A DNA stretch of 47,778 nt from NCBI GenBank assembly GCA_030156625.1, contig JASGMC010000004.1:1-47778 (forward strand). The letters are read 5' to 3'. Source of the DNA: Methanoculleus sp. Its GTDB lineage: Archaea > Halobacteriota > Methanomicrobia > Methanomicrobiales > Methanoculleaceae. Shown piece after piece: positions 4,539 through 24,485 of this stretch. The translations under genes and the position numbers were made by a program. The notes under the pieces are model-generated. The model saw only the letters and a program-made list of their open reading frames with translations, was not told where the DNA came from and made no database searches. Each line of letters begins with the position of its first letter. Position 1 is the first letter of the stretch.

Positions 4539-4564
4539 TGTTATTCATCCCCTGTCTATGATAT

Positions 4565-4990
4565 TCATCTGGCAAACTCTTTGAGCGGGCTTGGACCGAG
4601 CTCGTTGATGGTCTTGATGACGTCTTCCATGACCATGCCCCACTTTGCACCCTCGGATGCGGAGACGAAGGTCATCCTGAGACGCTTGTCGTCAAGACCG
4701 ATGTTCTTGAGGACACTCTTCAAGAGGAACATCCTCTTGGCCGCCTTAAAGTTGCCCTCAAGGTAGTGGCAGTCGCCGAAGTGACAGCCCGAGACCAGTA
4801 CGCCGTCCGCCCCGTCCTGGAATGCCTTCAGGATGAAGAGGGGATCGATCCGACCCGTGCACATCACGCGGATGGCACGGATGTCGGGCGGGTACTGAAT
4901 ACGGGCGCCGCCGGCAAGGTCTGCACCTGCGTAGGAGCACCAGTTGCAGATGATGGCGATGATCTTGGGTTTCCAGTTCTCGTCTGCCAT
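4565..4990 (-). CDS. mvhD: F420-non-reducing hydrogenase iron-sulfur subunit D
   Basis: A [2Fe-2S] electron-transfer protein (141 aa) that passes electrons from a hydrogenase or formate dehydrogenase into HdrA for flavin-based bifurcation. Five cysteines are seen at C15, C18, C44, C69 and C74 (ICNWCSYAGADLAGG, RVMCTGRID, SGCHFGDCHY), the typical MvhD pattern. The ATG directly follows the hdrA stop, and its GGAGGTGA ribosome site lies inside hdrA, so the two are translationally coupled. No mvhG or mvhA is next to it, which suggests that its electron donor is encoded elsewhere, for example F420-reducing hydrogenase or formate dehydrogenase. Confidence 0.95.
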   Translation of the reverse strand: MADENWKPKIIAIICNWCSYAGADLAGGARIQYPPDIRAIRVMCTGRIDPLFILKAFQDGADGVLVSGCHFGDCHYLEGNFKAAKRMFLLKSVLKNIGLDDKRLRMTFVSASEGAKWGMVMEDVIKTINELGPSPLKEFAR

Positions 4991-7012: not shown

Positions 7013-7023
7013 GTATTTGCACC

Positions 7024-7926: not shown

Positions 7927-7930
7927 AGTT

Positions 7931-8512
7931 TCACTCACCCTCCGCCAGTATCTTGTCTGCGCGATCTTTCAGTCCGTAGTGGTCGATGATCTTCCTGATG
8001 CCGGGCAGGTACTCGGGGTACTTGTGCGTCGTCTCAGGCTCCTCGTCGAGGCCGAGTTTCTTCCGGGCGGCGCGGTTCGCGTCGTTGTTCGGGACACCGT
8101 GGCCCGACTTGTAGATCAGCTGGACGGTCTGGAGGAAGTTGCGCGGGACGATGTCGCGCCGGGCCGCGAGGTTCCTCATCGCCATGATCGCGTCGGTCGG
8201 CGCGAGGTCGCGGGGGCACCGGTCGGTGCAGCTGTAACAGGTGGTGCAGAGCCAGAGGTCAGGGTCGGTGAGGATCTCTTCCTCGAGACCGAGGACTGCC
8301 TTGCGCATGAACAGCCGGATACGGTACGAACTCCGGGGTGCCGAGGGGCACGAACCGGTGCAGGTGCCGCACTGGTAGCACATGTGGGCGGCGGTCTGCC
8401 CGATCTTCTCCACGTCCTTGATGAACTCGGGGTTGCTGTCAGGAATGTAGTACTTCCTGTCCCGGAGTTTCTCAGCGAGTTGCTGGTCCTTATAGTCTTT
8501 TTTCACTGCCAT
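7931..8512 (-). CDS. hdrC: CoB-CoM heterodisulfide reductase subunit C
   Basis: Iron-sulfur subunit (193 aa) that relays electrons from HdrA to the HdrB active site. Two classical [4Fe-4S] motifs are present, CYQCGTCTGSCP near residue 45 and CTTCYSCTDRCP near residue 90, each with the expected four cysteines. The rest is helical and charged. The start ATG has a GAGGGAT ribosome site and lies 10 nt after the polyferredoxin gene. Length is normal for the cytoplasmic HdrC type. Confidence 0.95.
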   Translation of the reverse strand: MAVKKDYKDQQLAEKLRDRKYYIPDSNPEFIKDVEKIGQTAAHMCYQCGTCTGSCPSAPRSSYRIRLFMRKAVLGLEEEILTDPDLWLCTTCYSCTDRCPRDLAPTDAIMAMRNLAARRDIVPRNFLQTVQLIYKSGHGVPNNDANRAARKKLGLDEEPETTHKYPEYLPGIRKIIDHYGLKDRADKILAEGE

Positions 8513-8522
8513 TGGCTATCCC

Positions 8523-9692
8523 TCATGCCTCTTCTGCTTCTCCCAGAACTTTGACCTCGACCTCTCCGGGGGCGGTCTCTTTGACCTTCGACGTCCTCGG
8601 GGCGAGCAGCTTCTCCTTGATCTGCTTGAAGAGTTCCGTCTCCTTATCCTTCATCCGGATACCCGTCCGCCGCAGGATGATTGCATCCTCGCTCGGGCAG
8701 GCGTTGACGCAGGCGCCGCAGAGGATACAGAAGTCCTTGTTGATGGCGATGTTGGCCTCGACCTCTCCCTTCATCTCCTTAGCCGGGAGGGGGGAGGGCA
8801 GGTAGAGCGCGTTGCAGGGGCAGACCTCAACACAGGTCGAACAGCCGCCGGGGCACTTCTCGGGGTTGATCTCGATGTCTCCCTCGAAGATCTTCTCGAC
8901 GGTGATTGCCTCCTGGGGGCAGGTCTCGACGCACCAGGTACAGGTGCAGCAGTTGTCCTGCTCGATACCGACCTTGCCGGGCAGCTTGTCGCTGATGATT
9001 TCGCGTTCGAGAGTGATGCACTCCTGGGGGCAGGCCTCGACGCAGATCATGCAACCGTCGCAGGTGCTCTCTTCCCACTTGACTTCCCCTTCGATCTTGC
9101 CGGTCTCGGGGTTAGGGGCGTTGCGGACGACGGTGATGCTCGGACAGAGTTCGCCGCAGATGCCGCAGACGTCGCACTTCTCGGTGTCGACGGCAAAAGT
9201 AGTCTTGGTCTGCAGTGCAGCCTGACGCGGTTTGCCGGCTTCGTCGCTGCCCTCGAATGCGGGGACATCGCGTACGATGGCGTCCCTCGGGCAGGCTTCT
9301 TCACAGATGGTGCAACGGTCGCACTTCTCCTCGTCGATTACAGTGACCATGTCGTAGGTGGGGAATCCCTCCTTCTCAAGAATCGGGAGCCTCTCCTCCC
9401 CGTCAATCTTGAGCGTCATCGCATTGAAGGGGCACATGATGACACAGACACCACAGTACGAACACTTCTCAGGGTTGACGTCGACAGGTTCTGCGTAATC
9501 GATTGCCCCGCGGCGCGTCGCACCGACGGGTCCGAGCACGATTGCCTCTTCCGGGCAGGCGTCGACACAGATGCCGCAGCCAGTGCACGTCTCTGCGTTA
9601 AGGATCAGGTTGTTGACCGCCTTCAGGAGCCTCTGCTCCATGATGACGTTCTGTCCTTCCCGCGTTTTGGAATACTTTGGAAACAATGCCAT
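8523..9692 (-). CDS. fwdF: Polyferredoxin with eight [4Fe-4S] cluster motifs (FwdF)
   Basis: Electron-wire subunit of formylmethanofuran dehydrogenase. I count eight CxxCxxCxxxCP-type motifs along the 389 aa (starting with CTGCGICVDACP near residue 36 and ending with CILCGACVNACP near residue 320). The seventh has an extra residue (CPGGCSTCVEVCP), and the sixth begins with a doubled Cys (CCTCTWC). This matches FwdF, the polyferredoxin that carries electrons in Fwd and can join Fwd to Hdr. The ATG at 9692 has GGAGTGAT upstream. Its place between fwdG and hdrC is consistent with an Hdr-Fwd connection. MvhB-type polyferredoxin is the main alternative, but those are usually next to mvhA and have more clusters. 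Confidence 0.88.
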   Translation of the reverse strand: MALFPKYSKTREGQNVIMEQRLLKAVNNLILNAETCTGCGICVDACPEEAIVLGPVGATRRGAIDYAEPVDVNPEKCSYCGVCVIMCPFNAMTLKIDGEERLPILEKEGFPTYDMVTVIDEEKCDRCTICEEACPRDAIVRDVPAFEGSDEAGKPRQAALQTKTTFAVDTEKCDVCGICGELCPSITVVRNAPNPETGKIEGEVKWEESTCDGCMICVEACPQECITLEREIISDKLPGKVGIEQDNCCTCTWCVETCPQEAITVEKIFEGDIEINPEKCPGGCSTCVEVCPCNALYLPSPLPAKEMKGEVEANIAINKDFCILCGACVNACPSEDAIILRRTGIRMKDKETELFKQIKEKLLAPRTSKVKETAPGEVEVKVLGEAEEA

Positions 9693-9707
9693 ATTCTAGT
9701 ATCACTC

Positions 9708-9980
9708 CTAGGCTTCCACTTTTCGGGCCTTAGCCCGGCTCTCCCACGGTCCTGCAAGTTTGATAACCCCATAGGGGCATGCCTGGACGCATACGCCGCA
9801 ACCGGCGCAGAGCTCGGAGTTGAAGTCAAGGATGACGGCTTTGCCGTCTTTGACCTTGTAGATCTTCTCTTTCGTCACCGGATCTTCGGTGTAGAGCTCG
9901 AGAGCGTCGACCGGACATGCCACCACGCAGTTATTGCAGCCTGTACATCGTTCCATATTGATGTGCAATGCAAATGCCAT
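9708..9980 (-). CDS. fwdG: Ferredoxin-type subunit FwdG of formylmethanofuran dehydrogenase
   Basis: A 90-aa protein with two [4Fe-4S] motifs, CTGCNNCVVACP near residue 12 and CAGCGVCVQACP near residue 60, joined by a segment that mentions no other domain. This is the FwdG pattern, a small ferredoxin linking the polyferredoxin to the catalytic subunits. I start at the ATG at 9980, which has a GGTGCGTGAT ribosome site; the longer reading from 10034 begins in promoter-like AT-rich DNA. It is the first gene of the ten-gene operon. Confidence 0.88.
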   Translation of the reverse strand: MAFALHINMERCTGCNNCVVACPVDALELYTEDPVTKEKIYKVKDGKAVILDFNSELCAGCGVCVQACPYGVIKLAGPWESRAKARKVEA

Positions 9981-10000
9981 GGTATCACGCACCAGATCTG

Positions 10001-10025
10001 ATCGATTAAAAATCGATATAAAAAG
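10001..10025 (-). promoter_or_regulatory. Promoter of the fwd/hdr operon with overlapping palindrome
   Basis: On the minus strand a TATA box (CTTTTTATATCG, complement of 10014-10025) lies about 35-45 nt before the fwdG ATG. A perfect inverted repeat, ATCGATT-aaa-AATCGAT (10001-10017), overlaps its downstream edge, where a repressor would block transcription. The TATA box is seen; the operator role is inferred. Confidence 0.55.
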
Positions 10026-10034
10026 AATTGTCAA

Positions 10035-12286: not shown

Positions 12287-13243
12287 ATGATTACGCTCAC
12301 GCCCGATGAAGTCAGGGCCCGGTTCGGGCCGTTGTTCTCGATGAAGTACCTCGTCATGGTCGACCAGAACGCCGGTCTTGCGGAGATCCGCGAGCATTGC
12401 CGGGCCCGGGGGACCATCGAGTGGGATGCGGCGAACCGGGTGCGGGCGAAAGGTGCAATCCAGTCCTGCCACGTCGAGGGCACGACGATGACGATGCTCG
12501 CCCGTCTGGGCGTATCCCCGGCGAACTTCGGGGCTGCCGGCCAGGAGATCGGCGGGCAGGCGCTCGAAGGGGTCGAGGTCGCCGGAGACGAAGTGGTGAC
12601 GACCTGGTCCGGGATTGCGGGAGCGGGCGTCGGCGTCGCCGCCTGCCTGACCCAGGCCCCGGGCGTGACCCGGGCCGAGTATCCCTCCGAAGACGACCTC
12701 CGGATCGGCGGCGCCCGGGTCTGCCGGGTCCGGATCGCATCACCGCTCTACGAGAAGGTGACGATCGGGATCGACGACACCGACACCCGCGAGGAAGGCG
12801 CCACGTGGGTGCTCGCGCTCAAGTGCGCCGAGGCCTGCACGATCCCGGGGGTCGAGTACCTGGACATGCGCCTCGTGCAGCTCAACCCCGCGGTCCCGAA
12901 GAAGACCACCAACTGCGTCGGGTCCGCCCTGAACTTCGCGGTCCGCCCGGGCAAGGTGGACGAACTCCTCGAGTACGTCCGCGACTTCATCGAGTCCGAA
13001 GCGGTCAGCAACGACACCGGCATCGCTGTATACCAGGGGATTGCGTTTGCAGAAGAGTCTCCCTACCTAAAACGGGTCAAGACCGAGATCCTGACGGTCG
13101 ACGACGCGGAGGCGGAGGCCGCGCGGATGGGCGTCCGGTTCATCGACTCAAACGGGAGGAAGGGCAGAATCGGAGCACTCGGCGCTGTTTTCTGGGGGAA
13201 CAAGGGCGTTGAGGCGGCTGGTCTTTATGGAGAAACTCTCTGA
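12287..13243 (+). CDS. Paralog of methanogenesis marker protein 11 (GIDDTD family)
   Basis: Function unknown. The 318-aa product is clearly paralogous to the next gene: both share a glycine-rich segment (here GIAGAGVGVAACL near residue 110), the motif IGIDDTDTREEGATW near residue 162, a segment ending in VQLNPxVPxKTxNCVG, and a C-terminal G-AIGALGA block. The GIDDTD motif is also found in the ATP-using domain of the archaeal tRNA-Ile2 agmatidine synthetase TiaS, so nucleotide binding or kinase/ligase-type chemistry is plausible. The ATG has GGTGA upstream. It is the first gene of the operon leading into the aks genes and overlaps the next gene by 17 nt. Confidence 0.6.
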   Translation: MITLTPDEVRARFGPLFSMKYLVMVDQNAGLAEIREHCRARGTIEWDAANRVRAKGAIQSCHVEGTTMTMLARLGVSPANFGAAGQEIGGQALEGVEVAGDEVVTTWSGIAGAGVGVAACLTQAPGVTRAEYPSEDDLRIGGARVCRVRIASPLYEKVTIGIDDTDTREEGATWVLALKCAEACTIPGVEYLDMRLVQLNPAVPKKTTNCVGSALNFAVRPGKVDELLEYVRDFIESEAVSNDTGIAVYQGIAFAEESPYLKRVKTEILTVDDAEAEAARMGVRFIDSNGRKGRIGALGAVFWGNKGVEAAGLYGETL

Positions 13244-14120
13244 TCCGTATACGATACGGTATCCACAGATCGTGGCTGTGGCCGACGAGAGCGCCGGGCA
13301 GGTGGAACTCATCGAGTTCTTCGACTGTACCGGCGGCGCGATGTGGGTCAAGCGCCACTATGCGCAGAGCCCGCTCGTCCGCTCCGTCCGCACCGTGGGG
13401 TCGACCAACCGCTACCTCCTCTCGGCCGGGAGCGCCGACCTCGCGCTCGAGGGTTCGGTCTTTCCGGCGGGAATCGCCGGTGTCGCCGTCGAAGAAGGCG
13501 AGATCGCCGTCACCTACCGCGGCCTCGGCGGCGGGGGCGTGGGGGCGTCCATCTGCCGCGCCACCGCTCACGGCGTCGTCCGCTGCGAGAGCGATCCCGC
13601 GGGCGGCGGGCGTCTCGCTGGCTCGACGATCTGGCTCCCCCGGCTTGAAAGGGTGATCGTCGGGATCGACGACACCGATACCCCGGAGGAGGGCGCCACC
13701 TGGACGCTGGCCCACAACATCGCACGGGCAGTCGAGGACGACCGTTCCCGCTACCTCTCCCACACCATCGTGCAGCTCTATCCCGTCCCCTACCGGACCA
13801 AGAACTGCGTCGCCATCGCCTGCGAGTTCGCCACCTCCGATCCCGACGGGCTGGTTCGGAACTACCGCGACTACCTGGAAGAGTACACGCTCTCGGAGGA
13901 GACCGGGATGGCGGTCTGGCGAGGATTCGACCCCTCGCCGCTCGAAGAATTCGGCTGCCGCGTAAAGCGGGGAGAGGTCTCCGCGGACGACCTCGCCGCC
14001 CTCGGCGACCCGCGGTTCTCCATCGTCATGGACGGCCGGGGCGCGATCGGGGCGGTTGCGGCGATCCCGTTTTTCACGCGGTACGAGGAGGCGCTGGCGT
14101 TATGGAATGGAAACGGCTGA
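13227..14120 (+). CDS. Methanogenesis marker protein 11-like protein
   Basis: The 297-aa product resembles the methanogen-restricted marker family 11: an N-terminal segment with DPYTIRYPQIVAV, then FFDCTGGAMWVKRHY near residue 34, a glycine-rich turn (YRGLGGGGVGAS), the GIDDTD motif near residue 150 (IVGIDDTDTPEEGATW), and TKNCVAIACEFA near residue 193. The biochemical role is not established; the shared GIDDTD signature with TiaS hints at ATP use. The start is the ATG at 13227, inside the end of the upstream paralog. It overlaps the following radical SAM gene by 19 nt. Family naming is from memory of the family's typical sequence and length, so it is moderately certain. Confidence 0.65.
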   Translation: MEKLSDPYTIRYPQIVAVADESAGQVELIEFFDCTGGAMWVKRHYAQSPLVRSVRTVGSTNRYLLSAGSADLALEGSVFPAGIAGVAVEEGEIAVTYRGLGGGGVGASICRATAHGVVRCESDPAGGGRLAGSTIWLPRLERVIVGIDDTDTPEEGATWTLAHNIARAVEDDRSRYLSHTIVQLYPVPYRTKNCVAIACEFATSDPDGLVRNYRDYLEEYTLSEETGMAVWRGFDPSPLEEFGCRVKRGEVSADDLAALGDPRFSIVMDGRGAIGAVAAIPFFTRYEEALALWNGNG

Positions 14121-15073
14121 AGGCCCGGTTGCTTGAGGCAGGTACCGTTCGCCTCTCCGGCGAGCCTGCAGAGCCGTATGTATCCCGCTCCGCTGCCGGA
14201 CCTTCGGCCGGGACGCCCGGCTCGCTCTTCTTTTCCCCCGGCGACGGCCGAAGGGTCCGGGTCGGTATCGATGAGAGAAGTTCCATCGAGGTCGTCCACC
14301 GGGGAGGCGGCGTGGCCGACCTTCTCATCGACGGCGACGTCGTCGCCGGCCGGCTCGAGCCCGCCGCCCTCCACTGCCCCCGCCAGGCCTACATCACCGT
14401 CAGCGGGACCTGCATCTTTTGCTGCCGTTACTGCCCGGTGCCGGATCTCCCCGGCCGGCGAAAGGGGATCGCCGAGGTGGTCGAGATGGTCGCAAGCGTC
14501 GCCGACCGGATCGACGCCATCGCGATCACGAGCGGCGTCGCCTCCTCGATCGAGGAGGAGGAGGCGTATGTCCTCGAGGTCGTCGCGGCGCTCCGCCCAT
14601 TCAAACTTCCCATCGGGGTCTCGATCTACCCCCGCCCCGGGACCCCGGCCCGGCTTCACGCGCTCGGCGTCGCCGAGGTGAAATTCAACATCGAGGCGGC
14701 GACTCCCGACCTCTTTTCGGAGATGTGCCCCGGTCTCTCGTGGGATGCGGTCTGGGAATCGCTCTCGTCGTCCGTCGCGCTCTTCGGGAAGGATCGTGTC
14801 TATTCGAACGTCATCGTCGGCCTCGGGGAGACCGACGAAGACCTGGAGCGGGTTATGGAAGACCTCGCCGCGATCGGGGTCATCCCGGTTCTGCGCCCCC
14901 TCACCCCGGCGGCGTCTCTCGCCGGCCGGTCCCGCCCCTCCGCCGACCGGCTGCTCTCGCTCTGCGAGACTCATGAGCGTATCCTCCGGCAGGCAGGGCT
15001 CGACCCCCGCCGGGCATTGACGATGTGTGCGGCGTGCACCGGATGCGATCTTACGCCGGGGAGGGACACATGA
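14102..15073 (+). CDS. Radical SAM protein of the marker-11/aks operon
   Basis: A 323-aa radical S-adenosylmethionine enzyme. The cluster motif CX3CX2C is present near residue 103 (CIFCCRYCPVPD), with one additional Cys inside it. A TIM-barrel region follows, with AITSGVASS as the likely SAM-contacting glycine-rich strand and FNIEAAT and NVIVGLGET as later strands of the barrel, similar to biotin synthase-type enzymes. The C-terminus has a second cysteine group, MCAACTGC, which could bind an auxiliary cluster. The first 95 residues form a separate domain that I do not recognise. A GGAGG ribosome site lies 11 nt before the ATG. It overlaps both neighbours. Substrate unknown; its place in the operon suggests coenzyme B or another methanogenic cofactor. 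Confidence 0.75.
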   Translation: MEWKRLKARLLEAGTVRLSGEPAEPYVSRSAAGPSAGTPGSLFFSPGDGRRVRVGIDERSSIEVVHRGGGVADLLIDGDVVAGRLEPAALHCPRQAYITVSGTCIFCCRYCPVPDLPGRRKGIAEVVEMVASVADRIDAIAITSGVASSIEEEEAYVLEVVAALRPFKLPIGVSIYPRPGTPARLHALGVAEVKFNIEAATPDLFSEMCPGLSWDAVWESLSSSVALFGKDRVYSNVIVGLGETDEDLERVMEDLAAIGVIPVLRPLTPAASLAGRSRPSADRLLSLCETHERILRQAGLDPRRALTMCAACTGCDLTPGRDT

Positions 15074-16326
15074 AGGGCACCGAGGCGCTCGCTCTGGCCC
15101 TCCTCCGGTCGGCAGACCGCTGCTACGCCGTCCCCGGCTACCCGGTATCGGAGATTGCCGCCCGGGTTGGGGCCGTGATCACCGTAAACGAGAAGGTTGC
15201 CCTCGAGTATGCCCTCGGCGACTCGCTCTCCGGGCGGAGGGCCGCCGTGGCGGTCAAGCATGTCGGACTCAACGCCTGCGCCGATCCGCTGGTGCACGCC
15301 ACCGCCCAGGGCCTCCGGGCGGGCGTCGTGGTCGTCGCCGGCGACGACGTGCGCCCGATCGCATCGGACGTCGCGCAGGACTCCCGCTACTACGGCGAGG
15401 TGGCCCGGGTTCCGGTTCTCGAACCCGACGGCGAAACGCTCGGCCCGGCAGTCGAGGCGGCATTCGAGGCCTCGGAGACCTTCTCCCGCGTTGCCATCGT
15501 CAGGGTCACGCCCGACCTCCTGGACGCAGACGTGCCCAAACCCTCCGTTCGCCGCAGCGACCGGGAGGGGTGCCTCGCGGACCCCGGGCTCACGATGGCC
15601 GGACGGGCGAAGGCGGCCGACCGCCGGACCGCGGCGATGTTTGCCTGGTCGCGGTCCTCGCCGCTAAACCGTGTTGCCGGAGGGATGCCGCGTGTCGTCA
15701 CCGTCTACCCGCCCCCGGCGGACCCGGACGCACTCTCCACAACCCGTGAGGTCGGCCGCCCGTTCCTCCGGGAGCACCGGCTGCTCACCCCACCTGAGCC
15801 CGCCGGGGAGCCGGAACGGTTCTCCTCCCGGGGCTTCTCGCGGACATTCTGCCGGGACTGCCCATTCCACCCGGCGTTTGCCATCCTCCGCGAGCGCGGG
15901 ATGCGGGCGGTCTGCGACGCCGGGTGCGCAATCCTCGCGATGAACCCGCCCTACCGTATCGGCATCGCCACCTACGGCCTCGGTTCGTCGGTTGCCGTGG
16001 CTGCGACCGGCCCCGGCGTCGCGCTCACCGGCGACTACGCGCTCCTGCACTCGGGGCTAACCGCCCTCATCGACGCCTACGAACGCAAACTCCCGCTCCT
16101 CTGTATCGTCCTTGCGAACAACCGGATGGGGATGACCGGCGGCCACCCCGTCCCCGACATCCTTCGCTACATCGCCTGGGCCGACCCGGTCGTCTGCGCC
16201 GCAGACGACACCGCGACGCTTCGCCGGGCCCTCGTCCTCCCCCAGGACGGCCCCCGGACGGTGGCGATCGAAGGCGCCTGCCCTGAAGGTGAGAACCATG
16301 AAACCGTGGAATATCGAGATCTGTGA
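15070..16326 (+). CDS. Thiamine-pyrophosphate enzyme related to indolepyruvate oxidoreductase alpha subunit
   Basis: The 418-aa product has the two halves of a TPP enzyme. Residues 1-170 are a PYR-type domain beginning with YAVPGYPVSEIAA, as in IorA. After a variable middle, CRDCPFHPAF (near residue 258) corresponds to the CPGCPHR motif of IorA. The PP-type TPP site follows: TGDYALLHSGLTALIDA, then LANNRMGMTGGHP. The C-terminal ferredoxin domain of IorA is missing, and no iorB partner is adjacent, so an oxidative ferredoxin-linked reaction is unlikely; simple decarboxylation of a 2-oxoacid is the more natural reading. The ATG at 15070 overlaps the radical SAM stop (ATGA) and has a GGGAGG site. 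The following aksA starts inside this gene. Confidence 0.75.
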   Translation: MKGTEALALALLRSADRCYAVPGYPVSEIAARVGAVITVNEKVALEYALGDSLSGRRAAVAVKHVGLNACADPLVHATAQGLRAGVVVVAGDDVRPIASDVAQDSRYYGEVARVPVLEPDGETLGPAVEAAFEASETFSRVAIVRVTPDLLDADVPKPSVRRSDREGCLADPGLTMAGRAKAADRRTAAMFAWSRSSPLNRVAGGMPRVVTVYPPPADPDALSTTREVGRPFLREHRLLTPPEPAGEPERFSSRGFSRTFCRDCPFHPAFAILRERGMRAVCDAGCAILAMNPPYRIGIATYGLGSSVAVAATGPGVALTGDYALLHSGLTALIDAYERKLPLLCIVLANNRMGMTGGHPVPDILRYIAWADPVVCAADDTATLRRALVLPQDGPRTVAIEGACPEGENHETVEYRDL

Positions 16327-17428
16327 TGTAACGTTGCGAGACGGGGAGCAGACTCCCGGTGTCTCGTTTACCCTTGATGAGAAGATGGCTATCGCCCGAT
16401 TGCTCGACGAGATCGGGGTGGAGGTGATCGAGGCCGGTTTCCCGGTGGTGTCGGCAGCGGAGAAGGAGTGCGTTGCGGCCATTGCCCGGGGGGGTCTCTC
16501 TGCACGGGTCTGCTGCCTGGCACGGGCGCTCAAGCCCGATATCGAGGCGGCGCTCGACTGCGACGTGGACATGGTCAGCATATTCTTCGCGACCTCGGAC
16601 CTTCACATCCGGCACAAGTACCGTAAACCCCGACAGGAGGTGCTCGACGGCGCTCTCGATATGGTGGAGTTCGCCACCGACCACGGTGTGCAGGTGCGGT
16701 TCGCTGCCGAGGACGCCTCGCGGACCGATCCGGCGTTCCTCATCGAGATGTATACCCGGGGCGTCGAGTGCGGTGCCGATCTCGTCAGTTTTGCGGATAC
16801 GGTCGGGTGCCTCACGCCGCTTGAGGTCCATGCGGTCGTCTCGGGGATCCTCGATGCGGCCCCTCTCCCGCTCTGCATCCACTGCCACAACGATCTCGGG
16901 TTCGCTGCCGCAAACACCATCACGGCAGCGGCCGCCGGGGCGTTCCAGCTCCACACCACCGTCAACGGCATCGGCGAACGTGCCGGAAACGCAGCGCTCG
17001 AGCAGGTGCTTGTCGCCCTGCGGATGAAGGGCGGCGTCGACCGCTACGATCTTACCCGCCTGCAGGATATCTCGCGGCTGGTCGCCCGGTGCTCGGGCGT
17101 GGCCCCGGAGCGTACCCGGCCGATCGTCGGCGAGAACGCCTTTGCCCACGAGAGCGGGATCCACATCGCCGCGATCCTCTGCGATCCGTTGACCTACGAG
17201 TACATCCCCCCGGAGCTGGTGGGCAGCGAGCGGCGGTTCATCCTCGGGAAGCATACGGGGAAAAAGGCGCTTGAGCACGTCGCGAAGGCCTACGGGTTCG
17301 ACCTCTCTGACGGGGAGGCGCGGTGGGTGCTCGATCAGGTCAAACAGAAGAGCGAAGGGAAGTGCACCGTCACCCGTGAGGTGCTCTGCGGGCTTCTGCG
17401 GCGGGCAAAGGAGGTGACCGTCCAGTGA
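16298..17428 (+). CDS. aksA: Homocitrate synthase family protein AksA
   Basis: Condenses acetyl-CoA with 2-oxoglutarate and, in further rounds, 2-oxoadipate and 2-oxopimelate, starting chain elongation towards 2-oxosuberate for coenzyme B. The 376-aa protein belongs to the DRE-TIM metallolyase family: VTLRDGEQTPGVSF near residue 9 is the catalytic signature, and HCHNDLGFAAAN near residue 196 supplies the metal-binding histidines. GENAFAHESGIH near residue 275 and the ending resemble AksA/NifV rather than isopropylmalate synthase, since the long regulatory domain is absent. The ATG at 16298 is preceded by AAGGTGAG. It overlaps the preceding gene by 29 nt and aksD by 4 nt. Confidence 0.85.
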   Translation: MKPWNIEICDVTLRDGEQTPGVSFTLDEKMAIARLLDEIGVEVIEAGFPVVSAAEKECVAAIARGGLSARVCCLARALKPDIEAALDCDVDMVSIFFATSDLHIRHKYRKPRQEVLDGALDMVEFATDHGVQVRFAAEDASRTDPAFLIEMYTRGVECGADLVSFADTVGCLTPLEVHAVVSGILDAAPLPLCIHCHNDLGFAAANTITAAAAGAFQLHTTVNGIGERAGNAALEQVLVALRMKGGVDRYDLTRLQDISRLVARCSGVAPERTRPIVGENAFAHESGIHIAAILCDPLTYEYIPPELVGSERRFILGKHTGKKALEHVAKAYGFDLSDGEARWVLDQVKQKSEGKCTVTREVLCGLLRRAKEVTVQ

Positions 17429-18636
17429 GCACGCTCTCGGAGCGGATCCTCGGCGCGCCGGCGGGGGCATACGTGGACCGGGAGGTCGATATCGCCTTTG
17501 CCCACGACGGAACCGGCGTCCTCGCCCGGGAGGCGCTCCGGGAGATGGGGGTGGAGCGGCTCCCGCATCCCGAACGCCTGCGCCTGATCTTCGACCACAT
17601 CGTCCCGGCGAACACCGGGACGACGGCGACGCTCCAGGCCGAGCTCCGCGGGTATGCCCGGTCCTCGGGGATAGGGTTTTCAGACGCCGGCGGGGGAATC
17701 TGCCACCAGGTGATGAGCGAAGGGGTCGTCCGGCCCGGCATGATAGTTGTCGGCGCCGATTCCCATACCTGCACCCTCGGCGCCTTCGGCGCGTTCGCCA
17801 CCGGGATGGGAGCGACCGATATGGCGGCGGTCTGGGCGTCGGGGGCCACGTGGTTCCGGGTCCCGGAGACGATCGCGGTCAACCTCGCAGGAAGGCTCTC
17901 CGGTCCTGCGGAGCCCAAGGATCTCGCCCTCGCCTATGTCGCCAGGCTCGGGATGGAAGGAGCGACCTACCGGGCGCTGGAGTTCGTGGGTGACGGGGCG
18001 GCAGGCCTCTCCATGGACGGGCGGCTGACCCTCTCCAACATGGCGGTCGAGACCGGGGCGAAGACGGGAATGTTCTATGCTGACCCGGCCACCGTCCGCT
18101 ACCTCGCGGACTACGGGCTTGCCGCGGCGTCTCAAACGCCGGAGGACTGCCGCTACGAGCGGACCGTCGAGATCGATCTCGGCGATATCGTGCCCCTCGT
18201 CGCGGTCCCGCACCGGGTGGACACTGTCCGGGAGGCGGAGGAGGTCGCGGGCACGCACCTCGACCAGGTCTTCGTCGGGACCTGCACGAACGGCCGCTAT
18301 GAGGATCTCGCCCGGTTCGCCCGCATTGTCCGGGGGAAGAAGGTGGCTGTCCGCACCGTGGTCGTTCCCGCCTCGCGGACGGTGCTTGCCCGCGCGATCG
18401 CCACCGGCGTCCTCGCCGATATCGTGGATGCGGGATGCATGGTTGCGCCGCCCGGGTGCGGGCCGTGCCTCGGGGCGCATGCCGGGGTGCTCGGGGAGGG
18501 GGAGGTCTGCCTCTCCACCGCCAACCGGAACTTCAGGAACCGGATGGGCGTGGGCGGCGAGATCTACCTCTCGTCGGTTGCCACCGCCGCAGCGAGCGCC
18601 ATAGCCGGCGAGATTACCGTGCCGGAGGTGGCGTGA
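17425..18636 (+). CDS. aksD: Homoaconitase large subunit (AksD)
   Basis: Large subunit of the [4Fe-4S] hydro-lyase that isomerises homocitrate and its longer homologs. The 403-aa protein has the aconitase-family motifs: GADSHTCTLGAFGAFATGMG near residue 112 and two cluster cysteines with the third in VFVGTCTNGRYED (near residue 290) and APPGCGPCLGAHAG (near residue 343). Length fits the isopropylmalate isomerase/homoaconitase large subunit of archaea. It starts with GTG overlapping the aksA stop and overlaps aksE by 1 nt. Assignment to AksD rather than LeuC rests on operon context with aksA and aksF. Confidence 0.85.
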   Translation: MSTLSERILGAPAGAYVDREVDIAFAHDGTGVLAREALREMGVERLPHPERLRLIFDHIVPANTGTTATLQAELRGYARSSGIGFSDAGGGICHQVMSEGVVRPGMIVVGADSHTCTLGAFGAFATGMGATDMAAVWASGATWFRVPETIAVNLAGRLSGPAEPKDLALAYVARLGMEGATYRALEFVGDGAAGLSMDGRLTLSNMAVETGAKTGMFYADPATVRYLADYGLAAASQTPEDCRYERTVEIDLGDIVPLVAVPHRVDTVREAEEVAGTHLDQVFVGTCTNGRYEDLARFARIVRGKKVAVRTVVVPASRTVLARAIATGVLADIVDAGCMVAPPGCGPCLGAHAGVLGEGEVCLSTANRNFRNRMGVGGEIYLSSVATAAASAIAGEITVPEVA

Positions 18637-19106
18637 TGCAGGGAGCCGGGCCGGCAATCTGCCTGGGCAGCGACATCGACACCGACGTCATCATCGCGGG
18701 CCGTTACCTCCGGACGAAGGACCGCTCGGTCTGGGCTGAGCACGCTTTCGAAGACCTGGACCCGGCGCTCGCCCCCCGCCTCAGCGGTTCGATCATCGTC
18801 GCCGGGAGGAATATGGGGTGCGGGTCGTCCCGCGAGCAGGCCGTGGTCGCCCTCAGGGAGGCCGGGGTGGTCGGGGTCGTCGCGGAGTCGTTCGCCCGGA
18901 TCTTCTTCCGGAACGCCGTCAACGTCGGTCTGCCGGTGATCGAGGCCGCGGTCCCCTGCACCGAAGGCGCCCGCGTCGCCTTCGACCTCGATGCGGGATG
19001 GGTGGAGGTGGACGGGGAGCGCTACCCCGCCCGCCCGCTCTCGGAGAAGATGGTCGCCATCCTCAGGGCCGGAGGGCTGGTTCCCTACTGGAGGTCGTGG
19101 CGATGA
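18636..19106 (+). CDS. aksE: Homoaconitase small subunit (AksE)
   Basis: Swivelling-domain small subunit (156 aa) that completes the homoaconitase with AksD. Typical features are SDIDTDVIIAGRYL near residue 12, the substrate-recognition loop, and NMGCGSSREQAVVAL near residue 60, where the GSSRE arginine contacts substrate. The loop between them, YLRTKD, is of the YLRT type known to give homoaconitase its specificity for longer substrates, in contrast to YLVY-like loops in LeuD. The ATG shares one base with the aksD stop, and the end overlaps the next gene by 4 nt. Confidence 0.85.
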   Translation: MQGAGPAICLGSDIDTDVIIAGRYLRTKDRSVWAEHAFEDLDPALAPRLSGSIIVAGRNMGCGSSREQAVVALREAGVVGVVAESFARIFFRNAVNVGLPVIEAAVPCTEGARVAFDLDAGWVEVDGERYPARPLSEKMVAILRAGGLVPYWRSWR

Positions 19107-19924
19107 TCTTCCCTCCCCACTGCAAGTTTGTCGGGTCCGCGAACGGCACCCCGTGCGGGGATAAGGCCTACTTCCTCTCGCGCTACCTGGTCCGGGAGAC
19201 CGCCGACGGCACGGAGGTCGTCGAGGTGGAGACCGACCCGAACGGGACCGGGTTGATGCGCAACGTCCTCTCAACCCGGGTGCTCGCCGCCGGCGACGAT
19301 GTCTACCGCTACCCGGAACGCGTGAACGTTCAGGATCGAACATTCCTGGTACAGGAGGCCATGCGGTCGGGGTACCGCTGCACCATATTCACCGGCCACG
19401 GCGAGCAGACCACGTTCGTGCTGGATCCGGACCTCTCGGGGTTCCTCCGCATCCATGTCTACGACATCACCCCGCCACGCCCCCACCTCTCGGCCACGCT
19501 TGCCGACCTCGAGAGAACCGGGCTCTTCGGCGACCTTGAGATCGTCTTCAAGCACCATGTCCGGGATATCAGGGAGATCGGAGCCGACGTCTACCCCTGC
19601 CGTGCGGCCGGTTTCCCCCGCACCGTCGACGCGGACCCGCTCCGCCCCGGCGACCGTGTCGCCGGGTGCCTGACGGCACGGGAACTGCTGCGGGAGTGCT
19701 ACGGGGAGGGCGTTACGGTGGAGAACATCTGCCCGCTCGAGACGGTGGCGGGCGAGCCTTTTATTGCCCGGTGCTGCCGGGGCGAGCGGGCCGGGATCGG
19801 GCGCCGGAACGGCCTGTTCGGCGCTGTAGTCCACTGGGGAGCGTCGTCGTGGGATATTGCGGAGGCGGTCCGCAAGGTTGCGGCCGCATGGAGAGAGATG
19901 GATGGTAAAGGTAGCGGTCGTTGA
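19103..19924 (+). CDS. Unrecognised conserved-looking protein within the aks operon
   Basis: I do not recognise this 273-aa protein. It looks like a real soluble enzyme-like protein: codon use matches the neighbours, and it overlaps aksE by 4 nt (ATGA) and aksF by 23 nt. Visible features are several cysteines (C8 in HCKFVG, C18 in GTPCGDK, YPCRAAGFPR near residue 170, RVAGCLTARELLRECYG near residue 188, ENICPLE near residue 209, IARCCRGERAG near residue 224), a HGEQTTFVLDPDLSG segment near residue 95, and a C-terminal GAVVHWGASSWDIAEAV. There is no signal peptide or membrane segment. Being wedged between two coenzyme B genes, it probably acts in the same pathway. Confidence 0.7.
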   Translation: MIFPPHCKFVGSANGTPCGDKAYFLSRYLVRETADGTEVVEVETDPNGTGLMRNVLSTRVLAAGDDVYRYPERVNVQDRTFLVQEAMRSGYRCTIFTGHGEQTTFVLDPDLSGFLRIHVYDITPPRPHLSATLADLERTGLFGDLEIVFKHHVRDIREIGADVYPCRAAGFPRTVDADPLRPGDRVAGCLTARELLRECYGEGVTVENICPLETVAGEPFIARCCRGERAGIGRRNGLFGAVVHWGASSWDIAEAVRKVAAAWREMDGKGSGR

Positions 19925-20870
19925 GGGCGACGGGATCGGGCACGAGGTCGTCCCGGTAGCCCGCGATATCCTCGTGGCCGTGCGCCCGGACTTCGAGTTC
20001 TTCGATATCGAGGTGGGATACGGCCGGTGGGAGCGGACCGGGAGCGCCTGCGACGAGGAGACGATCGCCGATCTCCGGTCGGCGGACGCCGTCCTCTTCG
20101 GGGCGATCACGACGCCGCCGGACCCCGGCTACCGGAGCGTGCTTCTGCAGATCCGCCACGCTCTCGACCTCTACGCGAACGTCCGCCCGATCCGGGGCGA
20201 GGGGGTCGACGTCGTCATCGTGCGGGAGAACACCGAGGGGCTCTACTCCGGCATCGAGTGGACGGAGTCCGACCGGGCCTGCACCGTCCGGGTCGTCTCC
20301 CGCCGGGGCAGCGAGCGGATCGCCCGGCACGCCTGCACCCTCGCGAAGTCCCGCCGCCACCTCACCGTCGGCAACAAGGCGAACGTGCTGAAATCCGACT
20401 GTCTCTTCGTCGAGGTCTGCACGGAGGAGGCCGCCCGGGCGGGAGTTCCCTGCAGGGCGAGTTACATCGACGCGCTCTGCCTCGACCTCCTGATGCACCC
20501 GGACCGCTACGATGTGGTCGTGACGACCAACATGTTCGGGGACATCCTCTCCGACGCCGCCGCCTACCTGGTGGGGGGGCTCGGGATGCTCCCGAGCGCG
20601 AATATTGGAGACCGGCACGCCCTCTTCGAGCCCGTGCACGGGAGCGCTCCCGACATCGCGGGCAAAAAAATTGCAAACCCCGTCGCGGCCATCAGGAGCG
20701 CCGCGATGCTGCTCGAACATCTCGGCGATCCCGCGTCCGCGGCGGCCGTGGAGGAGGCCGTCCACCGGGTGCTTCGCGCAGGCATCCGGACACCCGACCT
20801 CGGCGGCGCCGCCGGGACCCGGGAGTTCGGGGCGGCGGTGCTTCGCGAGGTCGGGCGGGGGAAGGCCTAA
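19902..20870 (+). CDS. aksF: Homoisocitrate dehydrogenase family protein AksF
   Basis: NAD(P)-dependent oxidative decarboxylase (322 aa) of the isocitrate/isopropylmalate dehydrogenase family, acting on homoisocitrate and its homologs in coenzyme B chain elongation. Seen are VVEGDGIGHEVVP at the start, the substrate-binding arginines around LYANVRPIRG (near residue 93) and REnTEGLYSGIEW, the catalytic-lysine region LTVGNKANVLK, the metal-binding TTNMFGDILSDAAA (near residue 210), and the NAD-binding ALFEPVHGSAPDIAGK. The ATG at 19902 lies inside the previous gene with GGAGAG upstream. Length and motifs are complete. LeuB is the alternative; context favours AksF. Confidence 0.85.
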   Translation: MVKVAVVEGDGIGHEVVPVARDILVAVRPDFEFFDIEVGYGRWERTGSACDEETIADLRSADAVLFGAITTPPDPGYRSVLLQIRHALDLYANVRPIRGEGVDVVIVRENTEGLYSGIEWTESDRACTVRVVSRRGSERIARHACTLAKSRRHLTVGNKANVLKSDCLFVEVCTEEAARAGVPCRASYIDALCLDLLMHPDRYDVVVTTNMFGDILSDAAAYLVGGLGMLPSANIGDRHALFEPVHGSAPDIAGKKIANPVAAIRSAAMLLEHLGDPASAAAVEEAVHRVLRAGIRTPDLGGAAGTREFGAAVLREVGRGKA

Positions 20871-21744: not shown

Positions 21745-22058
21745 GCGCCCGGGGACGTTGCCCTGGGCAGGGCCATGCTGCCGGTTATGGTGCGGTGCTT
21801 CCTGCTACGATTAATATTTCTCATTTTTTATAATATGCTGGAATACTCTCTTCGCGCGCCCCGGAATATGGCAAGATATTTATATTAATAATTCTATCCT
21901 GCAACGCGCGAACCCTTTATCTTGTGGAACTCCGGTATTTCTCCGGAATTCCACAGGATCTCCGTTTGTACGCCGCCGGGGGAGTTCCGTTTCCCCGGCG
22001 CGCGTACAGACACCATCGTATGGGACGAAGGGGGCGTTCTCATCGTGGTGATAGAAGA
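21745..22058 (+). promoter_or_regulatory. Promoter and structured 5' leader of the surface protein gene
   Basis: A TATA box (ATATTTATATTAA, 21876-21888) would start RNA near 21910, leaving a leader of roughly 150 nt. It contains two consecutive strong stem-loops: TGTGGAACTCCGG at 21923-21935 paired with CCGGAATTCCACA at 21943-21955 (one mismatch), and 21968-21984 paired with 21990-22007 (GTACGC...GCGTAC outer pairs, CCGGGGGA/TTTCCCCGG inner). Another AT-rich TATA-like stretch lies at 21825-21837. Long structured leaders are uncommon in archaea. Confidence 0.55.
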
Positions 22059-24485
22059 ATGGCTGAATATAATGCGCTGATTGTAGCCTGTACCGTCATT
22101 GTTATCGGATTGCTGGCATCGCCTGCCCTGGCCGGGGAGAGGGCCCCGGGGGATATCGTTTCGATCTGTATCGATGGAGGATCGCAGGAGCACCCCGACA
22201 TTGACGGAGATATGGTCGTCTGGGAGGACGGCAGGAACGGAAGGTCGATCTACTATTCGAGCGGCACCGGCAGCGCAGGGCGGAAGGTTGCGGGCGAGGG
22301 GACGGGGCAGAGGTACCCGTCCGTCTCGGGGGATTACGTCGTCTGGGAGGAGAACCGGAACATGAGCCCGGATATCTACTTCTTCGGGCCTTCGACAGAC
22401 ACCATACCGCTCACCGACGACCCGGCCGACCAGCGGATGCCCGTCGTTCACGGGGATCATGTGGTCTGGTACGATGCCCGGGGCGGGAGCACGGATATCT
22501 GCCTCTATACTATCGAGACCGGCAGCGAGACCTTCCTCTCCTGCTCGCCGGTGACCGAATGGAAGCCCGCGCTCTCGGAGAGGTACGTCGTCTGGGAGGA
22601 GAGCACCGGGAATGGAGATATCTGGCTGTACGATATCTGGAACGGAGAGAAGCAACAGATCACCCGGAACGGTGCACGGCAGACATACCCGGCGATATCG
22701 GGGAGCCGGATCGTCTGGGAGGACTACCGGAACGGAGCACCCGACATCTACCTCTTCGATCTCGACAATCCGTCGGCAGGGGCGCAGAGAATCACCGACG
22801 ATCCCGAATGGCAGGTCTCCCCCTCGATCGACGGAGACCTCATCGCCTGGGAGGACAGGCGGGACGGAATCTGGAACGTTTACATCTGCGACCTCTCTCT
22901 CGGGAAGGATAAGCAGATGCCGGTCATTCCTTCCGCGACCGAACAGCTCTACCCCGCCGTCAGCGGTGACCGGGTCGTCTGGCAGAACGGCCGTGGCGAG
23001 GGTTCGGACATCTACGCCTTCACCTACTTCAGCGGAGCAGCCCCGGTGGCGGAGTTCTCGGCTGACCCGACCGAAGGAGGGGCGGCGCTCAACGTCCGGT
23101 TCATCGACCAGTCGGCCGGCGATCCGGACGCCTGGGAATGGGACTTCGGCGACGGGAATACCTCGACCTCGCAGTATTCGTGGCACAACTACGAGATCCC
23201 CGGGAACTACACCGTCTCGCTCACGGTGCATAACGAGTTCGGGTCCGACACCGTCACGAAGACCGATCTCATTCATGTAGGTCCTCCGGAACCGCCGGTT
23301 ATCAGCTTCTGGGGGGAACCGTTGTCGGGGCCTGCGCCTCTTATGGTCTATTTTTACGGTGATTTACCGGATTACGCGACGGCCTGGCTCTGGGACTTCG
23401 GTGACGGCGAGACATCGACACACCGGGATACGCGTCACCGTTACGATCGTCCCGGAGTCTATAACGTCTCCCTGACCTGTGACAACGCGGGAGCCAGCGC
23501 GACGCACACGGAGTACGGCTACATCACCGTCTACTCCGCAACTCCCACCCCGACGGTGACCCCGACGGTGACCCCGACCGTGACCCCGACCGTAACCCCG
23601 ACCGTGACCCCGACCGTGACCCCGACCGTAACCCCGACCGTAACCCCGACCGTAACCCCGACCGTAACCCCGACTCCAACGGTTAACGTGACGCCGACCC
23701 CGACACAGACTGCAACCCCGACCCCGACACAGAAACCCGCGAGCAGCGGTGGCGGCGGCGGAGGGGGAGGAGGCGGTGGTGGTGGTGGGGGTGGCGGCGG
23801 CTCCGCCCCGGTCTGGAGCACACCGAAGCTCACCCCCACGCCTACCCCCACCGTGACGGCGAAGCCCACTTCCCGTGAAGCCGACTCCGGCCGCCTGCAC
23901 CTCGGGGAGACCGGCCTCGTCGACCAGGTCGCCAGGATCCGTTCGTCCGACGGGGTCGTGACCCTCACGATCGCGGAGGGTGTCCGGGCTGTCGATGCCG
24001 CCGGCAACCCGCTCGCGGCGGTGACCCTTGCGGCCATCAATGCGGCCGACGTGCCCGCGGCGCCCGGCGCGTACGTCTTTTCCGGGTACGCCTGCACCGC
24101 CGGGCCGGAGGGAGCGGTCTTCTCACCGCCGGTGACCCTCTCGTTCAACTTCACACAAGAGCAGTGGAACGCCGTCTACAACGGCAGCATGCAGGACGGG
24201 CTCGTGGTGCAGCGATACAACCGGTCGGCCGGCACCTGGGAGGAGGTCCCCACCACCGTCCTCCCGGAGACCCGGAGCGTCACGGCCGAAGTCATGCACT
24301 TCAGCGCGTATGCGCTCTTCGCCGCGGCACCCGAGGACGGCGCGGCACAGGCGGTTGCCGCCGATACCGGCCGGGGACTCACGGCCGGGCGCGAGATCCC
24401 GTACGCGCACCTCATCCCGGGCCTGCTTGCCCTCATCATCGCGGGGGCGGGGGCACTCCTCTACTTCCGGAAGGATGAGCCCTGA
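22059..24485 (+). CDS. Large exported beta-propeller/PKD surface protein with Thr-Pro and poly-Gly linkers
   Basis: An 808-aa cell-surface protein of unknown ligand. Residues 1-27 form a signal peptide ending in LASPALAGE. Seven repeats of the type (D/S)G-D-x-VVWED-x-R-x-G-x-x-DIY fill about residues 40-325 and probably make a TolB-like seven-bladed propeller. Two PKD domains follow (about 327-405 and 410-492), each with WDFGDG. Then comes a linker of ten TPTV units and related Thr-Pro repeats (about 497-562), a tract of about 19 glycines (563-581), a C-terminal domain, and one membrane helix near 782-803 followed by RKDEP. The start is the ATG at 22059, since the 45 codons before it lie in the structured leader and lack protein character. 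Confidence 0.8.
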   Translation: MAEYNALIVACTVIVIGLLASPALAGERAPGDIVSICIDGGSQEHPDIDGDMVVWEDGRNGRSIYYSSGTGSAGRKVAGEGTGQRYPSVSGDYVVWEENRNMSPDIYFFGPSTDTIPLTDDPADQRMPVVHGDHVVWYDARGGSTDICLYTIETGSETFLSCSPVTEWKPALSERYVVWEESTGNGDIWLYDIWNGEKQQITRNGARQTYPAISGSRIVWEDYRNGAPDIYLFDLDNPSAGAQRITDDPEWQVSPSIDGDLIAWEDRRDGIWNVYICDLSLGKDKQMPVIPSATEQLYPAVSGDRVVWQNGRGEGSDIYAFTYFSGAAPVAEFSADPTEGGAALNVRFIDQSAGDPDAWEWDFGDGNTSTSQYSWHNYEIPGNYTVSLTVHNEFGSDTVTKTDLIHVGPPEPPVISFWGEPLSGPAPLMVYFYGDLPDYATAWLWDFGDGETSTHRDTRHRYDRPGVYNVSLTCDNAGASATHTEYGYITVYSATPTPTVTPTVTPTVTPTVTPTVTPTVTPTVTPTVTPTVTPTVTPTPTVNVTPTPTQTATPTPTQKPASSGGGGGGGGGGGGGGGGGGSAPVWSTPKLTPTPTPTVTAKPTSREADSGRLHLGETGLVDQVARIRSSDGVVTLTIAEGVRAVDAAGNPLAAVTLAAINAADVPAAPGAYVFSGYACTAGPEGAVFSPPVTLSFNFTQEQWNAVYNGSMQDGLVVQRYNRSAGTWEEVPTTVLPETRSVTAEVMHFSAYALFAAAPEDGAAQAVAADTGRGLTAGREIPYAHLIPGLLALIIAGAGALLYFRKDEP
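23547..23666 (+). repeat. Ten-unit 12-bp tandem repeat encoding TPTV
   Basis: Ten consecutive copies of ACCCCGACSGTR encode Thr-Pro-Thr-Val. The copies differ only at third positions (GTG/GTA, ACG/ACC). Such arrays change copy number by slippage or unequal exchange. Related Thr-Pro codons continue to about 23745. Confidence 0.85.
23746..23802 (+). repeat. Poly-glycine codon tract
   Basis: An uninterrupted run of about 19 GGN codons directly after the Thr-Pro linker, forming a flexible spacer in the surface protein. Confidence 0.8.

Follow-up and report, generated by a model that had tools for sequence, protein, structure and literature searches.

The stretch of Methanoculleus sp. DNA analysed here (assembly GCA_030156625.1, contig JASGMC010000004.1, positions 1 to 47,778; this whole stretch of 47,778 nucleotides is called the window below) carries nine plus-strand genes at 12287-20870 that probably form one operon for the 7-mercaptoheptanoyl part of coenzyme B, and that probably also serve to join this part on. 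The reading draws on gene content, gene order, recurrence, co-occurrence and co-loss. Two of the encoded proteins, a thiamine pyrophosphate (TPP) enzyme and methanogenesis marker 11 (Mmp11), very probably belong to the coenzyme B pathway, which methane-making archaea need. The comparison yields single-gene candidates, namely the TPP enzyme in two alternative families, Mmp11, and a protein of the DUF7714/XcbA family. If they are correct, most of the pathway would be closed, methanogenesis markers would be given functions and new targets for methane inhibition would become available.

A 2025 paper still calls coenzyme B biosynthesis unknown (PMC12068725), a 2023 paper lists 2-oxosuberate and three following intermediates without known enzymes (PMC10384328), and another gives an 'estimated 2 unknown proteins' for the missing steps (PMC3087415); the accessible portions of PMC9012536, PMC12584684 and PMC11237513 contain nothing on missing enzymes. 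We found no assignment of the present genes to coenzyme B in the open-licence literature on coenzyme B, aks, Mmp11 and XcbA, a scope outside which most subscription papers fall.

The operon and the proposed pathway

The nine genes of the operon are as follows.

12287-13243, plus strand: mmp11b, Mmp11-like paralogue with the GIDDTD motif and a TiaS TCKD-type domain; TIGR03280 195 bits, below the cut-off
13227-14120, plus strand: Mmp11; TIGR03280 340 bits, above the cut-off of 255.8; probable ATP-dependent kinase or activating enzyme
14102-15073, plus strand: radical S-adenosylmethionine (SAM) protein; Radical_SAM match; CX3CX2C (C104, C108, C111) and C-terminal CX2CX2C (C309, C312, C315)
15070-16326, plus strand: TPP enzyme, IorA-like without the ferredoxin domain; candidate 2-oxosuberate decarboxylase; E41, C261, C264, C286 and C404 invariant
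16289-17428, plus strand: aksA, homocitrate-synthase type, chain elongation; HMGL/homocitrate-synthase-like match
17425-18636, plus strand: aksD, homoaconitase large subunit; aconitase large match
18636-19106, plus strand: aksE, homoaconitase small subunit; aconitase small match
19103-19924, plus strand: DUF7714 (PF24830), the Pfam family of XcbA; 284.3 bits; C166, C189, C210, C224 and C225 invariant; candidate for the thiol-forming step
19902-20870, plus strand: aksF, homoisocitrate-dehydrogenase type; isocitrate/isopropylmalate dehydrogenase family match

An earlier note on this DNA had described nine genes, most of them overlapping, and neighbours in fact overlap at all eight junctions: the TPP gene starts at 15070 and the radical SAM gene stops at 15073, aksF starts at 19902 and the DUF7714 gene stops at 19924, while aksD and aksE have one base in common. 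The likeliest start of Mmp11 is the ATG at 13227, with GTG at 13221 or TTG at 13209 possible; its scores were taken on 13218-14117, where the codon at 13218 is CTG.

In the proposed route, AksA, AksD, AksE and AksF would extend 2-oxoglutarate to 2-oxosuberate, a function established elsewhere and assigned here by family and synteny. The TPP enzyme would then decarboxylate 2-oxosuberate to 7-oxoheptanoate, and DUF7714, perhaps with the radical SAM protein, would help to convert 7-oxoheptanoate to the thiol 7-mercaptoheptanoate. Mmp11 would act either on the acid, activating it so that an amide with threonine can form, or on the threonine part, by phosphorylating it. The known chain elongation (KEGG M00608 as described in PMC10384328) reaches 2-oxosuberate with the same four types of enzyme; the operon of the window has five proteins in addition, which belong to four further families. 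The proposal of the earlier note that the operon may be complete is not supported: it includes no demonstrated amide ligase or kinase, and Mmp4/MtxX, which tracks Mmp11, lies in this draft genome on a contig other than that of the operon.

Conservation in the phylum of the window

The comparison covered 147 genomes from the window's phylum, with 40 regions inspected from part of them. The order mmp11, radical SAM, TPP, aksA, aksD, aksE, DUF7714, aksF is kept in 10 of the 11 regions inspected from the window's own order, spanning six families, and because it recurs in this way the operon is more than a chance arrangement. One of these 10 regions has about 3 kb between mmp11 and the radical SAM gene; the eleventh region, from genome G128, is treated below. 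Mmp11 and the TPP gene lie at most 500 bp apart in 25/25 genomes of families f8 and f21, and DUF7714 and aksF at most 150 bp apart in 56/60 genomes, the exceptions being G112 (742 bp), G117 (2.2 kb), G131 (257 kb) and G128 (no AksF). In the four genomes inspected from family f14, the genes for the TPP enzyme, aksD, aksE, aksF and DUF7714 stand together with aksA inverted, mmp11 being near in three and the radical SAM gene in two. The single f7 genome inspected keeps the TPP, aks and DUF7714 genes together and has mmp11 on a different contig, and in the Archaeoglobi-like, f16 and f25 regions mmp11 is accompanied by the radical SAM gene only. From gene content we infer that f8 is Methanosarcinales, f14 Methanocellales and f10 ANME-1; such family names find support only where a genome shares its radical SAM row with a named record (G048 with L151, G141 with L148 and G119 with L138).

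McrA was present in 90 of the 147 genomes (91 matched, the weak match in G111 was dropped, and fragments were scored as present). Mmp11 exceeded its cut-off in 70 genomes, DUF7714 was found in 60, the radical SAM protein in 98 (counted at matches of about 100 bits or more) and MtxX/Mmp4 in 72, five of them below its cut-off. Split by McrA, the radical SAM protein occurs in 90/90 genomes with and 8/57 without it, DUF7714 in 60/90 and 0/57, and Mmp11 in 64/90 and 6/57, respectively. Among the genomes with McrA, AksF at 412 bits or more accompanies Mmp11 in 62/64 and is found in none of the 26 that lack Mmp11, three of which (G025, G070 and G075) give Mmp11-type matches below the cut-off. The TPP enzyme, searched for in this phylum as an IorA-like protein, occurs in 59 of the 90 McrA genomes, all of which have both AksF and Mmp11, and in 59 of the 60 DUF7714 genomes, G128 being the exception. 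The TPP count leaves out two genomes without McrA, G126 and G141, that have IorA-like frames of 510-512 amino acids; in G126 (C71, 5939-7365) the 510-amino-acid frame adjoins an AksF/LeuB-like match.

The earlier proposal that the additional families go with the aks genes is supported: the TPP gene stays or disappears together with aks, and DUF7714 is of the XcbA family. The earlier note had also held that absence of the families from many coenzyme B producers, with no linkage to aks genes elsewhere, would count against its reading. Mmp11 (over its cut-off), the TPP enzyme and DUF7714 are indeed absent together in 26/90 McrA genomes, none of which has a high AksF score. We had at one stage considered the absences in ANME-1-like genomes as a refutation of the pathway; this was dropped, since AksF scores are low or missing in those genomes.

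A natural deletion

Genome G128 belongs to the same order as the window genome, is 99% complete and has McrA. Its operon (locus L096, 2018-5659) retains mmp11b, mmp11, the radical SAM gene and DUF7714, with only 51 bp between the last two in place of the TPP-aksA-aksD-aksE block of its relatives. No aksF was found in the operon region, the best AksF match in the whole genome reaching only 280 bits, and no TPP homologue was found beyond an IorA-level match. The loss of aksA and aksD refers to the operon region, as no genome-wide search was made for these two. The TPP gene was lost together with the chain-elongation genes and so behaves as expected of a decarboxylase acting on their product. Mmp11, the radical SAM protein and DUF7714, which were retained, might be enzymes that act downstream of a salvaged intermediate or belong to some other process. 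G128 is possibly a coenzyme B precursor auxotroph; among Methanomicrobiales, Methanomicrobium mobile is a known coenzyme B auxotroph.

Two TPP families beside aks genes in different lineages

In other phyla, an Mmp11 alignment served as query; the 80 highest-ranking loci, out of 486 or more, were taken and scored for aks linkage within flanks of up to 10 kb, less where contigs end. Among these loci, aks genes flank Mmp11 in 10/11 from Methanomethylicota, 29/38 from Methanobacteriaceae, the single Methanofastidiosia locus (1/1) together with its look-alike L183, and one other locus, L211. One of eight Archaeoglobi loci has an aksE-type gene, which may be leuD, and no aks genes were seen within these flanks in Methanococci (0/4), Actinomycetota (0/6), Bathyarchaeota (0/1) or Korarchaeia (0/1). 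Of the neighbourhood comparison across methanogens that the earlier note had proposed, the gene order in 10/11 regions and the Mmp11-aks linkage in three other lineages support the association, but the radical SAM protein is not universal.

Methanomethylicota loci that are long enough have the order aksA, mtxX, aksD, aksE, TPP, mmp11, flavin adenine dinucleotide (FAD) oxidoreductase. Their TPP enzyme belongs to the acetolactate-synthase family (we call it ALS2; the two proteins tested score 395-427 bits, below the equivalog cut-off of 538), and it sits between aksE and mmp11 in 10/10 loci that reach aksE. A gene of the ALS2 type is also found next to aksA in the Methanofastidiosia-like loci L183 and L184 and in L237, from a Nezhaarchaeota genome; in a Methanocaldococcus (L239) one is separated from an aksD by a single gene. 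Methanobrevibacter-type genomes have ALS2 elsewhere, beside a gene that by eye resembles dCTP deaminase. In a tree all of these ALS2 proteins fall outside the IlvB clade (support 100), the deeper branches being weak and some rows long. A survey of 96 genomes in the neighbourhood of a Methanobrevibacter gave, by our reading of the scores, a match distinct from IlvB in 83 and no such match in 13. In a Methanosphaera metagenome-assembled genome (G147, locus L227) the only long protein that matches the acetolactate-synthase family is an ALS2, and IlvB was not found. This speaks against involvement of ALS2 in branched amino acids, although the assembly may be incomplete.

That TPP enzymes of two families stand beside aks genes in separate lineages is, in our view, the best single reason to place a TPP-dependent step after 2-oxosuberate. 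The decarboxylase suggestion of the earlier note gains from it: a TPP enzyme is the best candidate, a different TPP family adjoining aks genes in three other lineages and lying one gene away from aksD in a fourth.

Beside mmp11 and ALS2 in Methanomethylicota and in L183 there is a FAD protein, GMC-like by eye, with a Cys-rich stretch, for which no NCBIfam match was found at E 1e-10.

L174, 10909-12078: GMC-like FAD protein, by eye
L152, 10965-12134: GMC-like FAD protein, by eye
L183, 4523-5752: GMC-like FAD protein, by eye

Possible roles of DUF7714 and the radical SAM protein in thiol formation

The DUF7714 protein of the window matches PF24830 above the 25-bit cut-off, and relatives of it occur in bacterial coenzyme M clusters. 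A tblastn search with an f8-family DUF7714 (L063) against 72,556 plasmid records returned five, at E 1e-7 to 1, from Xanthobacter Py2, Nocardioides JS614, two Methylocystis and Mycolicibacterium NBB4. In all four that we opened, the DUF7714-type gene adjoins phosphosulfolactate synthase and the neighbours show a coenzyme M cluster. Two of the bacterial proteins were scanned, scoring 293.6 (Xanthobacter) and 307.2 bits against DUF7714 and 470 and 423 bits against the XcbA model (NF052538). Sequence identity to the window protein is 20-27% for the bacterial members, and five Cys are invariant in 10/10 aligned DUF7714/XcbA members, four of them bacterial. The window protein resembles XcbA (Xaut_5051 of Xanthobacter Py2 pXAUT01) in its DUF7714 family, in its five Cys and in belonging to a pathway whose end product is likewise a thiol cofactor. 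However, its substrate and neighbours differ, and it stays below the XcbA cut-off (50.3 versus 150 bits; two archaeal relatives reach 85 and 119). A sequence search of the PDB with DUF7714 gave only a chance-level match (E 0.69).

XcbA has been described as the functional analogue of sulfoacetaldehyde dehydrogenase (PMC11507031). Since both pathways convert an aldehyde-level carbon to a thiol, DUF7714 is a candidate for that step, and we put its participation in thiol formation at slightly short of an even chance. In the corresponding route to coenzyme M, the aldehyde-to-thiol step is that of the MMP16/COG1900 coenzyme M synthase (PMC12068725). The two steps are analogous, but COG1900 corresponds to PF01837, a Pfam family other than DUF7714, and the operon holds no COG1900. 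A Methylocystis plasmid (L355, 1901-3001 and 4869-10443) has an MSMEG_0568-type radical SAM gene about 2 kb from its coenzyme M cluster, and the radical SAM protein of the window is distantly of this type.

The C-S bond could instead be made by the radical SAM protein, through radical sulfur insertion as in lipoyl and biotin synthases. These are its nearest relatives of solved structure in a sequence search (lipoyl synthase E 2.7e-9, biotin synthase E 9.5e-9), and both its CX3CX2C motif and its second Cys set are invariant in 17/17 sequences of the family, which divides into two clades. Sulfur-transfer genes (ThiI, TusA and COG1900, and a LarE-like gene by eye) lie nearby in 6/20 loci where the radical SAM gene stands apart from mmp11 (L315 at 6467-9479, L309, L310 and L319-L321; L311 and L312 were not seen), yet this count has no chance control and carries little weight. 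Earlier work reportedly has an aldehyde as the thiol precursor rather than an unactivated carbon, and no match above 91 bits was found in 11 of 12 presumed methanogen genomes from other phyla (G147-G151 and G157-G163, of which G157 and G158 are presumed by tree placement only; the McrA search covered the window's phylum), the twelfth, G149, giving 150 bits. We therefore regard this alternative as unlikely, and a part of any kind for the radical SAM protein in thiol formation as equally doubtful; the protein could act in a sulfur step peculiar to certain lineages, or have some other function connected with methyl-coenzyme M reductase (MCR). DUF7714 is better founded for the thiol step.

Mmp11 and a possible role in another process

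The protein at 13227-14120 is a member of methanogenesis marker 11 (TIGR03280), a model that gives no function, and 12287-13243 is its sub-cut-off paralogue. These two proteins match the TiaS TCKD domain (PF22641) at 62.1 and 51.3 bits, above the cut-off of 27, and in Mmp11 the similarity to TiaS and a related structure lies in the C-terminal half. The GIDDTD motif is near-invariant in 61 sequences, its aspartates being kept. TiaS, the tRNA(Ile2) agmatinylcytidine synthetase, phosphorylates with ATP and so activates a carbonyl before attack by an amine. The two families have the GIDDTD kinase-like domain in common, but the N-terminal halves differ and the two proteins of the window score only 40 and 19 bits against TiaS, whose cut-off is 600. 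With such ATP chemistry, Mmp11 might well be used to form the amide or to phosphorylate threonine, and we assign it to activation or phosphorylation tentatively, at somewhat less than even likelihood. MtxX is present in 69 of the 70 genomes of the phylum that have Mmp11, and MtxX/Mmp4 adjoins an Mmp11-type gene in G009, G019, G029, G038, G048 and G070.

Several observations weigh against assigning the nine genes to coenzyme B. Five of the 64 genomes with McrA and Mmp11 have no TPP enzyme (G020, G058, G084, G119 and G128; G058, G084 and G119 seem to belong to Archaeoglobaceae), and DUF7714 is absent from 30 of the 90 McrA genomes. The AksF threshold of 412 bits was picked after the scores were known, and Archaeoglobaceae without Mmp11 also exceed it, which makes the rule unsafe in that family. 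The genomes are related, so that the counts are not independent events, the 26 genomes without Mmp11 falling into few families. G128 holds Mmp11, the radical SAM protein and DUF7714 without aks, and the radical SAM protein is not universal, having no match above 91 bits in most of the presumed methanogens of other phyla mentioned above. Mmp11 and the radical SAM protein persist in six genomes without McrA (G024, G033, G041, G048, G124 and G141), all of which also carry MtxX, and occur together in 6/6 Actinomycetota loci (L145, L147, L149, L150, L154 and L157, metagenome-assembled genomes with mmp11 and a same-family radical SAM gene and no aks in the flanks). The invariant Cys set of the TPP enzyme, taken up below, suggests a redox site.

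Mmp11, the radical SAM protein and DUF7714 might accordingly serve another process linked to methanogenesis, their place in an aks operon reflecting merely a tendency to cluster. Besides G128 and the genomes without McrA, the hdr and fwd genes adjoining the operon in the window fit such a process, as does the occurrence of the radical SAM protein in 90/90 McrA genomes irrespective of their AksF state. However, Mmp11 is also linked to aks in three further archaeal lineages, where the genes are ordered differently, the absence of Mmp11 coincides with that of AksF in McrA genomes, and DUF7714, a member of the XcbA family, stands beside aksF in 56/60 genomes. We consider this explanation improbable. 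As for the genomes without McrA, locus L148 comes from JdFR-21/Mnemosynella, for which a 2022 study reports five leftover markers of unpredicted role and proposes a coenzyme M/B-forming thiol:fumarate reductase (PMC9635834). Organisms that lack MCR may thus have a use for coenzyme B or a similar thiol.

Chemistry of the TPP enzyme

In profile scans the window TPP protein scores 135.5 bits against TIGR03336 (IOR_alpha), far below the cut-off of 650.9; it passes TPP_enzyme_C and falls short of TPP_enzyme_N. Two longer homologues reach 275 and 287 bits, their match stopping at position 473 of the 595 in the profile. No ferredoxin family is among the matches of the window protein in these family scans. 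It is like IorA in its TPP domains and in a CxxC...GC...C set, but differs in lacking the ferredoxin domain and in its neighbours. The IorA fold without a ferredoxin domain, as the earlier note had it, thus stands; as to the missing partner subunit, no iorB lies beside the gene in the window, where the neighbours are the radical SAM gene and aksA, though iorB itself was not searched for.

The N-terminal Glu (E41), G321-D322, N350, C261, C264, C286 and C404 are invariant in 44/44 aligned homologues, and the four Cys presumably form a proximal Fe-S site, as in structures of 2-oxoacid:ferredoxin oxidoreductases (OFORs). Because these Cys are invariant, calling the protein a simple decarboxylase, as had been suggested, goes too far; it may be redox-active or carry a structural cluster. 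An OFOR-type enzyme with one cluster would decarboxylate 2-oxosuberate oxidatively with ferredoxin to a pimeloyl thioester, which would later be reduced to the aldehyde or diverted to biotin. An oxidoreductase subunit is the nearest named family, such a Cys set holds the proximal cluster in OFORs, and OFORs with one cluster exist. This possibility nonetheless appears improbable: besides the missing ferredoxin domain and the neighbouring genes, the TPP enzymes that stand beside aks in other phyla belong to the acetolactate-synthase family, which is known for decarboxylation without oxidation. We consider it likely that the TPP enzyme is the 2-oxosuberate decarboxylase. In-frame TGA codons in TPP homologues were considered as selenocysteine codons and rejected, being ordinary stops after the last codon in the six loci inspected.

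More speculatively, and with rather less than even likelihood, DUF7714/XcbA would be a five-Cys enzyme common to the final part of the coenzyme B and the bacterial coenzyme M pathways, where it would turn an aldehyde carbon into the thiol. Methanogens would have recruited two different TPP enzymes for the preceding decarboxylation: here an IorA-like protein that bears Fe-S, and in other phyla one that resembles acetolactate synthase. Mmp11 would be the ATP-dependent finishing enzyme.

Identity of the aks genes

The aks genes are assigned here by family, tree and synteny. No aks protein of the window passes an equivalog cut-off (AksF 322 versus 540 bits for NF040626, AksD/HacA 429 versus 550 bits for NF040615); aksD and aksE pass subfamily cut-offs only, and aksA not even those. 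These scores would fit genes for another 2-oxoacid of the leucine or lysine type, but such a role is very improbable, as the operon AksF clusters in a tree with Methanobacteriaceae AksF and apart from a second gene of the same or related genomes, the genes are linked to Mmp11 and DUF7714, and AksF scores are low where Mmp11 is absent. A limit of the tree is that an Archaeoglobus gene from G024, a genome without McrA, also falls on the AksF side.

Flanking genes

To the left of the operon, hdr and fwd genes lie on the opposite strand, together with Ftr; at 2827-10034 of the minus strand we recognised hdrABC, an mvhD/vhuD-type gene, fwdB and a polyferredoxin gene, an arrangement conserved in several families of the order. 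Heterodisulfide reductase is a coenzyme B user. To the right there is an endonuclease IV gene, and a large open reading frame at 21924-24485, with PKD-like text and a TPTVTPTVTP repeat seen by eye, probably encodes a surface protein.

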